The position numbers and the translations under genes are program-made. From the IMG/VR virus record IMGVR_UViG_3300025168_000907, positions 1 through 20,128 of that record: a stretch of 20,128 nucleotides of DNA; one strand, 5' to 3'. The notes under the pieces were generated by a model, which did no database searches, was not told where the DNA came from, and saw only the letters and a program-made list of their open reading frames with translations. Source of the stretch: a virus. This document shows, in pieces, positions 2,551-20,128 of the stretch (positions are counted from its first letter, which is position 1; the number at the start of each line of letters is the position of its first letter).

Positions 2551-2733
2551 ATGATAACGTACATTATTGAAAACAAAGAACAGCTTATTACACTTACTAC
2601 TGCTGTTGTTACAGCGGCTAGTCTTGTTTCAGCTCTGACACCAAACAAAGCAGATAATAAGATAACAGCAATAATTCTTAAACTTGTTAACTGGTTGGCT
2701 ATAAACGTCGGTAAAGCAAAACCAAAAGAATAA
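2551..2733 (+). CDS. Small membrane protein, holin-like
   Basis: A 60-aa protein with one hydrophobic segment at about residues 12-30 (ITLTTAVVTAASLVSALTP), then a polar TPNKADNK turn, a second amphipathic or weakly hydrophobic helix (ITAIILKLVNWLAINVG) and a basic tail (KAKPKE). Small size, one or two membrane helices and a charged C-terminus fit a phage holin or similar membrane protein. The TPNK-DNK turn after the first helix resembles small putative holins of podoviruses, but this is a memory-level resemblance. It sits 8 bp after the scaffold gene and 2 bp before the next small gene, so it is co-expressed with head genes. With the lipoprotein downstream it could form a lysis cassette. The start has an A/T-only leader; AAGGG lies about 12 bases upstream. 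Confidence 0.7.
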   Translation: MITYIIENKEQLITLTTAVVTAASLVSALTPNKADNKITAIILKLVNWLAINVGKAKPKE

Positions 2734-2735
2734 TT

Positions 2736-2993
2736 ATGGGGGTTAAAGTACTCGTAAGTCTTCTTCTCAATTTCCCAAAGATTTGCGAGTACTTTTTTAA
2801 AATAGTCGAAGCTTATGAAAAAGAAGCTTATAGTCGCAATCGTGAGCGCAACATTGATCTTATTGACGAGTGGTTGCAAGACAATAGGCCCACCGAAGAG
2901 CAAGATTCCCCATTTTATCTCGAAACTCAAAGTCCATTCATTCACCGATCCTCAAAAGGAGATCATAGCAGAGATTCTGATGTACACGAATGA
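2736..2993 (+). CDS. Small protein overlapping a lipoprotein gene; possible inner-membrane spanin
   Basis: An 85-aa protein of unrecognised family. The N-terminus (VKVLVSLLLNFPKICEYFFKIVEAY) is hydrophobic to amphipathic and could be a membrane or membrane-surface helix. It is followed by a charged helical stretch (EAYEKEAYSRNRERNIDLIDEWLQD) and a Pro/Ser/His-rich tail that shares its DNA with the lipoprotein in the +1 frame. This layout (N-terminal membrane helix, charged helix, lipoprotein gene embedded in +1) matches lambda Rz/Rz1 architecture, suggesting an i-spanin, although the membrane segment is interrupted by Pro-Lys and the coiled coil is short. It starts 2 bp after the preceding stop. 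The code after about residue 50 may be constrained mainly by the overlapping lipoprotein. The function is inferred from context only. Confidence 0.6.
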   Translation: MGVKVLVSLLLNFPKICEYFFKIVEAYEKEAYSRNRERNIDLIDEWLQDNRPTEEQDSPFYLETQSPFIHRSSKGDHSRDSDVHE

Positions 2994-3012
2994 ACTGGAA
3001 CATCGCAGATAA
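2815..3012 (+). CDS. Small lipoprotein nested in the +1 frame; candidate outer-membrane spanin (Rz1-like)
   Basis: A 65-aa protein with a textbook lipoprotein signal: MKKK, a hydrophobic core (LIVAIVSATLILL) and the lipobox LTSGC with Cys21. The mature part is about 45 residues and begins KTIGPPKSKIP, a short proline-containing linker like that of Rz1 proteins, then a mostly helical charged end. Signal peptidase II processing would anchor it to a membrane, and Lys after the lipid-bearing Cys favours the outer membrane. It begins inside the preceding gene, which is in another frame, and ends 19 bp beyond that gene. In the lambda/T7 scheme such proteins pair with an inner-membrane partner to fuse inner and outer membranes during lysis. 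The lipoprotein call is strong; the spanin role is an inference from size, nesting and the adjacent holin-like gene. Confidence 0.72.
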   Translation: MKKKLIVAIVSATLILLTSGCKTIGPPKSKIPHFISKLKVHSFTDPQKEIIAEILMYTNELEHRR

Positions 3013-3211
3013 TTTTAAAGATTTCAACACACACAAAAGAACACACAACAAAAACAACCGAAAGTTTGTTTTATGTTTAGCCCCTTGCGAGGGACAACTA
3101 AGCGAAGTAAACATTCATAGGTCTTTTTGTTTTATTCATTAAGTGAGTTGTTAAACCCAAAACAACAACAAACAACAAACAATAAATAAAATAGAAAGGA
3201 CATATTAAATT
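3013..3211 (+). promoter_or_regulatory. Capsid gene leader with A/C-rich unstructured tracts
   Basis: About 200 nt without a gene. Two tracts are almost pure A/C (3025-3060 and 3157-3183, with repeated CAACAA). Between them are a small hairpin with CCCT/AGGG arms at 3082-3093 and a possible GTTGTT/AACAAC hairpin (3147-3152 and 3161-3166). A ribosome-binding site AAAGGA lies at 3195-3200, 11 bases before the capsid ATG, making it one of few clear Shine-Dalgarnos here. T7 places its strong phi10 promoter and gene 10 leader at this position, so a late promoter is expected, but no T7-consensus promoter is visible. The unstructured CAA-rich leader could favour high translation of the most abundant protein. 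Confidence 0.45.
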
Positions 3212-4252
3212 ATGGCTAATGGAGATACAAACCCATCAAGGATAGGAGCGTCGTCCAATACCTCAAACGGCACTGTAGGCGATGCTGATGCTTTATTTCT
3301 TAAAGTATTCAGTAACGAAATCCTAACAACATTTGATGAGGCAAACGTGATGAAGGACTTGCATACAATCAGAACGATAAGTTCTGGAAAGAGTGCGCAA
3401 TTTCCTGTAAGTGGCGTTGCCGAGGCAAATTACTACACGCCGGGTAAAAATATACTTGAATCAGCTAACGGTTATTTAAGTAATATTAAGCACAATGAGA
3501 AAGTCATTAGCATTGATGATGTGTTGATTAGTTCAACATTCATCGCTGAATTTGACGAACTAAAATCTCATTATTCGATGCGAAGCACCTACGCGAAAGA
3601 GATCGGAAAGGCACTTGCCAAGCGCTTTGACCTCGCGGTCATGAAGACTTGGATAGCTGCTGCTAGATCTGGAGCTAACCTGCACGGGGGCCAAGGTGGT
3701 ATCAGAATCAACGCTACTGGCGGTGATAATGTATACACTGTTACAGAGCTTATTGCGGCCTTCTTTGAGATGGCTCAAAAGCTTGACGAAAACGACGTTC
3801 CAAACGACGGACAGCGTTTCGCAGTTCTGCCACCTTCACTATACTACAAGCTACTAACAGCTGACAATGTTGCAATCAACCGCGACAATGACGGTGTTGG
3901 TTCAGTAAGTAAAGGTATAGTGCCTATGGTAGCCGGTATTAAGTTGATTAAATCTCAACACATTGCTGATGTTACTGCTTTAGGTAACTTATCAAGTACC
4001 ACTACAGGCGACGGAAGCACCGCTGTTAAGAACGACCCGTTCGCTGGCTCTGGTGCGGGATACAACGGTGACGTTTCAAAGGCTGTTATAATCGGCGGCC
4101 ACCCAGCAGCTGTTGGAACAGTCCGCCTTTTGGACTTAACAACACAGTCTGATTATAGCGTTGCCCACCAAGGCACTTTGTTCCTAGCAAAATATGCGTT
4201 AGGGCACGGGGTCTTAAGGCCGGAATGCGCCGTAGAAATACACGGTGACTAA
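3212..4252 (+). CDS. Major capsid protein (T7 gp10A-like)
   Basis: Builds the icosahedral head shell. Length 346 aa is almost the same as T7 gp10A (345). The sequence has the family pattern: a flexible N-terminus, LFLKVFSNEILTTFDEANVMKDLHTIRTISSGKSAQFPVSG (about residues 28-68), an extended loop region with the YYTPGKNI phrase, the long helix region (RSTYAKEIGKALAKRFDLAVM), and a C-terminal part with FAVLPPSLYYKLL and a SVAHQGTLFLAKYALGHGVLRPECAVEI end typical of podovirus HK97-fold capsids. It has its own leader with a good Shine-Dalgarno and a strong terminator 27 bp after the stop, consistent with high expression. No -1 frameshift extension equivalent to T7 gp10B is apparent, since the other frames close quickly after the stop. 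Confidence 0.97.
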   Translation: MANGDTNPSRIGASSNTSNGTVGDADALFLKVFSNEILTTFDEANVMKDLHTIRTISSGKSAQFPVSGVAEANYYTPGKNILESANGYLSNIKHNEKVISIDDVLISSTFIAEFDELKSHYSMRSTYAKEIGKALAKRFDLAVMKTWIAAARSGANLHGGQGGIRINATGGDNVYTVTELIAAFFEMAQKLDENDVPNDGQRFAVLPPSLYYKLLTADNVAINRDNDGVGSVSKGIVPMVAGIKLIKSQHIADVTALGNLSSTTTGDGSTAVKNDPFAGSGAGYNGDVSKAVIIGGHPAAVGTVRLLDLTTQSDYSVAHQGTLFLAKYALGHGVLRPECAVEIHGD

Positions 4253-4278: not shown

Positions 4279-4317
4279 AGGGTGGGAGTCGAAAGGCTCC
4301 TGCCCTTTCTTTTTTTT
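4279..4317 (+). terminator. Strong intrinsic terminator after the capsid gene
   Basis: A 12-bp stem (4279-4290 with 4295-4306, including G-T wobbles) closed by a GAAA tetraloop at 4291-4294 and followed by a pyrimidine run that is almost all T to 4317. Its position directly after the capsid gene is that of T7 T-phi, where transcription is partly attenuated between head and tail genes. It would lower tail and ejection protein expression relative to capsid. Confidence 0.9.
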
Positions 4318-15959: not shown

Positions 15960-16121
15960 ATGAACAATCAATTCACAACGCCAACTGTTGGTGTTTTAGG
16001 TCTACTTGCGAACATTACTTTGAATGATGTAAACGAGATTCTTGCAGTGCTTGTAGGCTTGGCGACGCTAATTTATATGAGCTTAAAGATAATTAAGGAA
16101 ATACGTAAAAAGGATAAATAA
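15960..16121 (+). CDS. Small holin-like membrane protein (T7 gp17.5-like)
   Basis: A 53-aa gene 12 bp after the fibre stop. The N-terminal half is polar to mildly hydrophobic (MNNQFTTPTVGVLGLLANIT), then LNDVNE, one clear transmembrane helix (ILAVLVGLATLIYMSLKII, about residues 29-47) and a Lys-rich cytoplasmic tail (KEIRKKDK). T7 gp17.5, the type II holin located between fibre and small terminase genes, has the same plan: an LSLNEW-like polar turn before the membrane helix, then a charged tail. Position, size and topology together make this the best holin candidate. Stop and next start are separated by 4 bp. There is no strong ribosome-binding site. If the protein at 2551 is also a holin, the phage carries two. 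Confidence 0.75.
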   Translation: MNNQFTTPTVGVLGLLANITLNDVNEILAVLVGLATLIYMSLKIIKEIRKKDK

Positions 16122-16125
16122 CTAT

Positions 16126-16377
16126 ATGAGCAACAACGAAAAAGAAAACATGGGGAGAATGTATACTTTACAGGATCTTCTGACAGATGAGTTCATAGCC
16201 AGGATAAAAATAGGCGATGCAGAACCATCTTTACTAAACGCTGCTAGGCAGTATCTTAAAGATAACGGAGTTCATTCAGGACTTAAACAAGACACTAAGA
16301 TACAAGACCTTGTAAGTGTTCTCCCGTTTAAAGAGGAAGAAGGAATAGACAGAGTAGTAAAACACGCTTCTAATTGA
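16126..16377 (+). CDS. Terminase small subunit (T7 gp18-like)
   Basis: An 83-aa protein close in length to T7 gp18 (89). It would recognise the concatemer junction DNA and recruit the large terminase to start packaging. The central sequence LLTDEFIARIKIGDAEPSLLNAARQYLKDNGV (about residues 18-49) resembles the helical DNA-binding region of small terminases of this group, in which a conserved PxLxxAAxxxLKDN-type motif is seen. The C-terminus is acidic then polar. AAGGA is 11 bases before the ATG. Its TGA overlaps the ATG of the next gene by one base. The identity is supported by gene order between fibre/holin and large terminase. Confidence 0.82.
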   Translation: MSNNEKENMGRMYTLQDLLTDEFIARIKIGDAEPSLLNAARQYLKDNGVHSGLKQDTKIQDLVSVLPFKEEEGIDRVVKHASN

Positions 16378-16598
16378 TGAGAAACTACAAAAAAGAATAT
16401 AAAACTTATCACGGCTCCGAAACTCAAAAGAAACGAAGAGCTGGAAGAAATAAAGCAAGAAGACTTGTTGTTAAATCAAAAGGTAAAGCAGCTCTTAAAG
16501 GTAAAGACATCGACCACAAAGACCGCAACCCTCTCAACAACAGTAGAAAAAACTTGAGAATACAAAGCAAAGCCAGAAACAGATCTCGAAACAACTAA
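16377..16598 (+). CDS. Small HNH-like nuclease domain protein
   Basis: A 73-aa very basic protein (many Lys/Arg in the first 45 residues) with a compact HNH-type core near the C-terminus: DIDHKDRNPLNNSRKNLR, i.e. D-H, central N-P-L-N-N and N-L-R as in HNH_3-like endonucleases. The protein ends with a polar basic tail (QSKARNRSRNN). The usual length is longer, so this may be a minimal nuclease or a DNA-binding derivative. Start: ATG 16377 is used rather than the TTG codon just before it, because it overlaps the previous TGA by one base (coupled translation). Lying between the small and large terminase genes, it may act in packaging or genome processing, as HNH proteins do next to terminases in some tailed phages, or it may be a relict homing nuclease. 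Confidence 0.75.
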   Translation: MRNYKKEYKTYHGSETQKKRRAGRNKARRLVVKSKGKAALKGKDIDHKDRNPLNNSRKNLRIQSKARNRSRNN

Positions 16599-18363: not shown

Positions 18364-19077
18364 ATGAAGAAAATAAAAGAAGGGCTGTTTGAAGCTCAGG
18401 AATCCATCAGCAAAGCTATCGAGGCACTTACAGAACTCGAAAGACTGAAAGAGGAACCCACAGCAATACCCTTTCCCACCAACAGTATACCAAGAGATGA
18501 ACTAAACGTCGCTATATGCGTCGGTCACTCAAGGTCAGGCGACACTGGAGCCGTAAGCGCCGGAGGCATCAACGAGTGGACCTACAATAAAAAAGTAGCA
18601 GAACACCTCAAATCAGACCTCCAGGAATACGGAATCAGTAGCTTCGTCGTCGATAAATATGGAGGCAGTTACGGATCTTATACGTCAGCCGTAGATTGGC
18701 TCGTAAAACACTTAAAGGAACATAAAGCCTCCATAGCTATCGAACTGCACTTTAATGCTTCAAGTAACGCAAAGGCCGAAGGTATGGAAATGCTGTACTG
18801 GAAAACTTCAAGGATCGGAATGACCCTCGCAGAATACCTACTCAGAGGATGTAATAAATACTTTCCACTCATAAAGAATAGAGGAACCAAAAAGAAAACC
18901 ACAGGCGACCGAGGGGCCACCTTCCTGCGTAAAACACACTGCCCAGCAGTAATCGCAGAACCGTTCTTCGGATCTTGTTGGGAGCCAGATTGGACCACCT
19001 TCGCAAACAATGAACATATCCTAAGCCAAGCTCTAGCGCTGGGCGTTAAAAATTGGGCAGATGAACACATCTTATAA
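18364..19077 (+). CDS. N-acetylmuramoyl-L-alanine amidase (Amidase_3 type), phage endolysin
   Basis: Cleaves the bond between N-acetylmuramic acid and L-alanine in peptidoglycan at lysis. 237 aa. Zinc ligands expected for Amidase_3 are visible: His55 (CVGHSRSGD), Glu71 (GGINEW) and His129 (IELHFNA); the catalytic Glu is Glu199 (IAEPFF). Residues 1-30 form a predicted charged helix (EAQESISKAIEALTELERLKE), followed by a proline-rich linker (about 31-47), before the catalytic domain. No signal peptide is present, so export would use a holin. AGAGGAAA precedes the ATG at good spacing. The gene is downstream of the terminase, unlike the T7 gp3.5 amidase, which is a different family. It overlaps the following gene by 17 bp. 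It is most likely the endolysin. Confidence 0.92.
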   Translation: MKKIKEGLFEAQESISKAIEALTELERLKEEPTAIPFPTNSIPRDELNVAICVGHSRSGDTGAVSAGGINEWTYNKKVAEHLKSDLQEYGISSFVVDKYGGSYGSYTSAVDWLVKHLKEHKASIAIELHFNASSNAKAEGMEMLYWKTSRIGMTLAEYLLRGCNKYFPLIKNRGTKKKTTGDRGATFLRKTHCPAVIAEPFFGSCWEPDWTTFANNEHILSQALALGVKNWADEHIL

Positions 19078-19369
19078 TCCACGACAAATTACCATAGGAG
19101 GCCACAAGTATAAAATCGTTTATAAAAAAGACCTGGAGGACTTCGGTAACCTAGACGTCGATAAGAAAATCATCACAATACGAAGCTCCCTTAAAATAAA
19201 CGATAAACTAGACACCATCCTTCACGAAGCCTTTCACGCTTGTCTAGCTATCTCTGGACTAAGCTACCTCATAGACGACGAAAACAAAGAAGAAGCACTA
19301 GTTAGAGCTTTTGACAGCCTCCTTTTACCAACAATAAAAAAAGAATTAAAGAAAGTACTTAAAAAATAG
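19061..19369 (+). CDS. Small HEXXH zinc metalloprotein (ImmA/IrrE- or SprT-like)
   Basis: A 102-aa protein with HEAFH at residues 55-59 and a downstream acidic helix ENKEEALVRAFDSLL (about 74-88) whose Glu could be the third zinc ligand, as in ImmA/IrrE-type and other gluzincin-like proteases. The N-terminal half contains ITIGGHKYKIVYKKDLEDFG and a strand pair (KKIITIRSSL), which is the ImmA-like order of beta hairpin followed by the HEXXH helix. No signal peptide. It starts inside the amidase gene (17-bp overlap), so its translation is probably coupled to the endolysin. A role in lysis timing, degrading a host protein or a regulator is possible, but the sequence shows only the likely peptidase fold; alternative: inactive metal-binding relative. 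Confidence 0.78.
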   Translation: MNTSYNPRQITIGGHKYKIVYKKDLEDFGNLDVDKKIITIRSSLKINDKLDTILHEAFHACLAISGLSYLIDDENKEEALVRAFDSLLLPTIKKELKKVLKK

Positions 19370-20059: not shown

Positions 20060-20128
20060 CCGGTCTTTAAGCCTGACTTATCGCCGGTCTTAAAGCCTGA
20101 CTTATCGCCGGTCTTAAAGCCTGACTTA
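20060..20128 (+). repeat. 24-bp tandem repeat array running off the window end
   Basis: Units at 20060-20083, 20084-20107 and 20108-20128 (the last cut by the window edge). The first differs from the others at one base (CTTTAAG instead of CTTAAAG); the rest of the unit, CCGGTCT then GCCTGACTTATCG, is identical. Each unit has a CCGG core and a CTTAAAG-type core. It could be a terminal-repeat-associated array as in T7 or iteron-like binding sites. The true copy number is unknown because the sequence stops inside the array. Confidence 0.9.

Follow-up and report, generated by a model that had tools for sequence, protein, structure and literature searches.

What is the role of three small genes that lie, in a marine T7-like phage, between the genes for scaffold and capsid? 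In T7 the corresponding gap carries no annotated gene, and the spanin genes Rz/Rz1 (18.5/18.7) lie between TerS and TerL. The window (the whole stretch of DNA analysed, a virus record of 20,128 bases) has the late gene order of T7: portal, scaffold, MCP, tail tubes, internal virion genes, fibre, a 53-aa transmembrane (TM) protein, TerS, HNH, TerL and an Amidase_3 endolysin. A first-pass annotation had placed three genes of 60, 85 and 65 aa at 2551-3012, where they are indeed present, and had read them as a possible holin followed by a spanin pair. The features on which the argument turns are these:

1730-2542: scaffold gene (PF05396)
2551..2733, + strand: 60-aa protein with one TM segment (about 12-30) and an amphipathic C-terminal helix; phrog_9685
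2736..2993, + strand: 85-aa protein in the i-spanin position, with an amphipathic helix (2-48) and a disordered tail (49-85), without a TM segment
2815..3012, + strand: 65-aa lipoprotein with lipobox LTSGC (Cys21), in the +1 frame of the 85-aa gene; o-spanin candidate
3212-4252: MCP gene
15960..16121, + strand: 53-aa single-TM protein in the T7 gp17.5 slot, a probable holin with weak matches to holin families phrog_920/1350
16374..16598, + strand: HNH endonuclease gene (PF13392, E=3.2e-7), in the slot of Rz/Rz1 in T7
18364..19077, + strand: Amidase_3 endolysin (PF01520, E=1.3e-19)

The lipobox and the +1 frame of the 65-aa gene are as first described, but the gene is not nested: its stop falls 19 nt beyond that of the 85-aa gene, so that in the window the two overlap. 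In AP013544 the counterpart is fully embedded. As a test of chance, the 85-aa protein was synonymously re-coded 20,000 times; 4.5% of the re-codings contained a +1 ORF that reached 60 aa or more, and in 0.08% such an ORF also had a lipobox. Among 21 aligned relatives dNN/dSN is 0.33 for the 85-aa frame and dNN/dNS is 0.30 for the lipoprotein frame. The codon-position pattern in these 21 sequences changes over at the borders of the overlap: third-position variation tracks the 85-aa frame before it and the lipoprotein frame after it, and within the overlap is held back by both. The three ORFs are genuine genes, and both overlapping frames are under purifying selection.

Relatives were gathered by searches with alignments of the MCP, the 60-aa protein and the lipoprotein. 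They recovered the three-gene block from uncultured T7-like phages of marine origin, 91 distinct sequences in all. The lipoprotein is in the +1 frame in 86 of the 86 blocks assigned by script, and also in the remaining five, which were read from ORF lists. The block occupies two sites in these phages, the scaffold-MCP gap or (five distinct blocks) a position just upstream of the portal gene. In a related clade the homologue of the window's own Amidase_3 endolysin comes directly after the 65-aa gene; nine distinct blocks have the endolysin in this place, and in G009 and G018 this is the sole endolysin match, with none downstream of TerL. A 60-aa homologue also occurs together with a further small protein, a +1 lipoprotein and an amidase on two other contigs, one a phage contig of 29 kb (L118/L142) and one assigned to an Acidimicrobiaceae bin (L228); on L118 and L228 the lipoprotein overlaps not the 85-aa protein but another protein, which has no TM-like segment. 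The association with lysis that had been proposed for the block is borne out by these endolysin neighbours and by those of the 60-aa family, described below. Linkage to other lysis genes is a feature of related and other phages; in the window the block does not adjoin the endolysin.

Two-component spanins consist of an outer-membrane lipoprotein and a type II inner-membrane protein, their genes being embedded, overlapped or separated; very short systems are allowed (62 periplasmic residues), and proteins of other topologies might serve (Kongari et al., PMC6139136). The lipoprotein and the overlap fall within this definition; the 85-aa protein falls outside it. The sequence LTSGC fits the PROSITE-type lipobox pattern used for the scan, with Cys21 followed by Lys at +2; the signal has K in its n-region and a hydrophobic h-region, and the mature part, of about 45 aa, contains a PP motif. 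Asp never occupies the +2 position of the mature lipoprotein in the aligned set, which is consistent with the predicted sorting to the outer membrane. By its sequence the 65-aa protein is a small lipoprotein with a lipobox and a predicted outer-membrane sorting signal, and its gene forms an overlapped +1 pair in the 91 distinct blocks. A C-terminal TM segment, as in unimolecular spanins of the T1 gp11 type, is absent. Neither the window lipoprotein nor the 85-aa protein has a significant PHROG or Pfam match to a named spanin family; spanins are frequently without detectable homologues. An Rz/Rz1 pair elsewhere in the genome was also looked for: the T7 slot holds the HNH gene, and no other credible sense-strand lipoprotein was found in the window or in the long relatives scanned. 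As the only credible lipoprotein of the genome, the 65-aa protein is most likely the o-spanin.

Like lambda Rz/Rz1 and T7 gp18.5/gp18.7, the window lipoprotein is expected in the outer membrane, and its gene overlaps in +1 the partner gene that precedes it. Unlike them, the pair lies between scaffold and capsid genes, rather than in a lysis cassette (lambda) or between TerS and TerL (T7), the block includes an extra 60-aa TM protein, and the partner is without a TM segment. The suggestion that order and overlap copy lambda accordingly holds for the o-spanin-like lipoprotein and its +1 overlap, and is not supported for the partner.

When the three proteins of the window were compared directly with phage records by tblastn, the matches were just AP013544, a weak match in Salicola phage CGphi29 and chance-level hits; the link to the cultured Pseudomonas phage LUZ100 was found by reading the scaffold-MCP gap of cultured relatives. 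In LUZ100 (20081-20617, corresponding to L240 2082-2618) this gap holds gp37 and then a 78-aa ORF (20275-20511) that carries no annotation and is overlapped in +1 by the gene of the lipoprotein gp38. Gap, gene order and +1 overlap are those of the window, and gp37 is a detectable homologue of the 60-aa protein (phrog_9685, E=4.3e-9; hhalign 97%, E=1.3e-11). The differences are that the body of gp38 has no detectable homology to the window lipoprotein, matching instead the Rz-like spanin phrog_1275 (E=1.6e-12), and that the 78-aa protein is more hydrophobic than its window counterpart. The authors of the LUZ100 study reported that no spanin equivalents could be annotated (PMC10134795).

CGphi29 has the order holin, M23-type peptidase, 60-aa homologue, 71-aa protein and +1 lipoprotein. 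As in the window, the 60-aa homologue precedes a small protein overlapped in +1 by a lipoprotein; here, however, the block sits in an ordinary lysis cassette after the holin and peptidase, and the lipoprotein matches the Rz-like spanin phrog_8971 (E=4e-11), the family of the K1-5/SP6-like o-spanins. Two homologies were tried and rejected: the 85-aa protein has none to the CGphi29 71-aa protein, and the two lipoproteins, although alike in layout, gave a non-significant profile comparison. The K1-5/SP6 spanins themselves resemble the window's in forming a very short set, there adjoining the endolysin, with a lipoprotein of similar size and layout; they differ in that the genes are separated and the i-spanin candidate is a 49-aa N-in/C-out protein, and homology of the lipoproteins, probed only via CGphi29, was not demonstrated.

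The position of the block had been called unusual. Against T7 it is, but it is fixed across a wide clade, and the Bradyrhizobium phage Pasto (MT708545; L244 1425-2607) carries a lysis cassette there, its depositors having annotated endolysin, holin, i-spanin and o-spanin in the scaffold-MCP gap. Pasto is thus a T7-like phage with an annotated spanin pair between scaffold and MCP genes, the place of the window's block, and differs in having endolysin and holin in the gap as well; sequence similarity to the window block was not noted in an unsystematic comparison. Endolysin and holin are also annotated in the same gap of ProddE (L245 2283-2927). With these precedents, to call a spanin pair in the head region unusual is too strong, and the gap seems to be a recurrent site of lysis genes in T7-like phages of other hosts. 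In the same gap of KM23-C739 (L005 8252-8707), a 70-aa protein with a TM and a coiled-coil-like segment is followed by a lipoprotein (GMYGC), together a candidate separated spanin pair of another family. A 79-aa protein (L207 3315-3554), which follows the lipoprotein in that contig and has an N-terminal TM segment and a coiled-coil-like tail, could be a canonical i-spanin.

Taken as a whole, the block is probably the outer-membrane-disruption part of a lysis system, placed between scaffold and capsid genes. Which protein would serve on the inner-membrane side is less plain. A comparison of 11 genomes, counting the window, gave just three small hydrophobic proteins conserved throughout: the 60-aa protein, the lipoprotein and the 53-aa protein. 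The 85-aa family accompanies them. Any inner-membrane spanin partner is therefore to be sought in the 60-aa protein or the 85-aa protein, but neither of the two shows the N-terminal TM segment in N-in/C-out orientation expected of an i-spanin: the 85-aa protein lacks a TM segment, and the 60-aa protein is predicted N-out/C-in. Judged on these predicted topologies, the inner-membrane partner is not canonical. We entertain, as a real possibility though short of an even one, a three-part spanin-like system in which the inner side is formed by a one-TM protein together with an amphipathic-helix protein and there is no type II i-spanin.

The 60-aa protein is a membrane protein, as first described, with one TM segment; AF2 places helices at 9-29 and 33-54. 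Its orientation is predicted from K/R residues, which are commoner after the TM segment than before it in 65 of 65 scored homologues. Its only family match is phrog_9685, of unknown function (E=1.6e-7). The family adjoins five kinds of endolysin (Amidase_3, GH19, M15, SleB-type and M23-type) in unrelated phages and bacterial contigs: homologues lie directly after GH19, M15 or SleB-type hydrolases in Roseospira, Inquilinus and several MAG contigs, and the bacterial contigs with a family member directly after a peptidoglycan hydrolase, of several types, are L222, L226, L227, L235, L237, L223 and L236 (the L236 hydrolase match being below its Pfam cut-off). From this neighbourhood phrog_9685 looks like a family of general lysis-cassette proteins. 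In Rhizobium phages (Paadamvirus; L242, L243, L247) a homologue stands alone in the scaffold-MCP gap, where no lipoprotein was found.

These last two settings bear on an arrangement in which the 60-aa protein is a holin or antiholin, the lipoprotein alone acts on the outer membrane, and the 85-aa protein regulates the timing of lysis from the cytoplasm. The family does trail endolysins in cassettes without a seen lipoprotein (Inquilinus, Roseospira), and it is alone in the Paadamvirus gap. However, the genome has another holin candidate, the 53-aa TM protein in the T7 17.5 slot, which is conserved in 10 of 10 other genomes compared and lies upstream of TerS where mapped; CGphi29 likewise has a holin alongside the 60-aa family. 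The initial designation of the 60-aa protein as holin is accordingly improbable, and the arrangement as a whole unlikely, if well short of negligible.

The 85-aa protein had been described as having a hydrophobic start and a charged helix, and as an Rz-type i-spanin. The hydrophobic start exists but is short and does not span a membrane. No TM segment was found in the protein or in 28 aligned homologues, a finding that the first-pass annotation had itself named as one that would refute its reading; the i-spanin assignment is not supported. Kyte-Doolittle hydropathy by itself does not part T7 gp18.5 (1.35) from the 85-aa family, so the comparison also drew on the length of charge-free runs and on an insertion-scale estimate. 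Charge-free runs are of 6-13 residues in the family against 19-23 in T7 gp18.5, lambda Rz and AF Rz; the insertion score of the family is unfavourable, on an estimate that uses an ad hoc position weight and is for comparative use only. AF2 predicts, with modest confidence, a kinked helix (2-48) and a disordered tail; the AF2 models are of low confidence (pLDDT 62 and 69).

A canonical two-component spanin would nevertheless follow if the short, weak N-terminal segment did insert N-in/C-out, making the 85-aa protein a true i-spanin whose helix and tail reach into the periplasm and bind the o-spanin. The gene is in the cognate position with a +1 overlap as in lambda and T7, combined periplasmic lengths down to 62 residues have been reported (PMC6139136), and in the LUZ100 counterpart the charge-free stretch at the N-terminus is longer, at 16. 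Yet the absence of a TM segment extends to all 28 aligned homologues; charged positions 4, 15, 18, 22 and 25 form a helical stripe that runs through the would-be TM segment; positive residues come after the short hydrophobic segment; the shortest homologues are of 49 aa; and proteins without a TM segment take the same place in L118 and L228. We regard insertion of this kind as doubtful.

Small outer-membrane lipoproteins such as T5 Llp and the Cor proteins are known in superinfection exclusion, and the window lipoprotein might similarly block a receptor, its lysis-gene neighbourhood being incidental; against this stand its late position among head genes, the conserved +1 overlap, the adjoining endolysins and the occurrence, in this slot of CGphi29 and LUZ100, of lipoproteins that belong to spanin families, which together make it very improbable. 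That one or two of the ORFs are non-genes overlapping by chance, for which nothing speaks beyond their small size and lack of annotation in relatives, is as good as dismissed by purifying selection on both frames and conservation of the block in 91 distinct sequences.

If the block is indeed the outer-membrane-disruption part of the lysis system, a plausible course of events is as follows. The block would be transcribed late with the head genes, and the 65-aa protein, once lipidated, would travel to the outer membrane and act there as the o-spanin. On the inner-membrane side would act the one-TM 60-aa protein, the amphipathic-helix 85-aa protein whose gene overlaps that of the o-spanin, or both. 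The probable 53-aa holin encoded near TerS would trigger lysis and the amidase remove peptidoglycan, whereupon the cassette would break or fuse the outer membrane. Directly after the endolysin gene is a 102-aa protein (19061-19369) with weak metallopeptidase-like matches, kept in near relatives G001, G005 and G014 and not found in G009 or G013.

The coupling of lysis and capsid gene expression that this location had suggested is no more than plausible, given a terminator-like hairpin 3' of MCP (4279-4309), as at T-phi in T7, and given that in LUZ100 a separate promoter serves MCP and overlaps the 3' end of gp38, the last gene of the block (PMC10134795). In the window about 200 nt of non-coding sequence (3013-3211) separate the lipoprotein and MCP genes and are strongly conserved in relatives; conserved pieces include CCCCTTGCGAGGG, TAGGTCTTTTTGTTTTA and a GTTGTT/AACAAC pair. 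This sequence, which has no Rfam match and no covariation, is perhaps an MCP leader or promoter. The conserved element CCTTGCGAGG before MCP, likewise with neither Rfam match nor covariation, was tested for being a phage promoter present in several copies, and this reading was rejected: genomes that have the element have it once, at that place, with one additional antisense match in L061. Tandem repeats occur inside the scaffold gene (1865-1918; 21 bp, 2.6 copies, encoding AEDEQTK repeats) and at the very end of the record (20060-20128; 24 bp, 2.9 copies).

Around 13% of surveyed phage genomes have no identifiable spanins (PMC6139136). The block provides a recognisable spanin candidate for marine T7-like phages and for the cultured LUZ100, reported to be spanin-less, whose counterpart is the most useful outcome for experimenters; it also links the unannotated family phrog_9685 to lysis. 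The question raised is whether an outer-membrane spanin can work without a canonical transmembrane inner partner. If the three-part system exists, it would represent a different way of disrupting the outer membrane in marine T7-like phages, with a related form in phages, CGphi29 and LUZ100 among them, that give the impression of lacking spanins or of being only half annotated.
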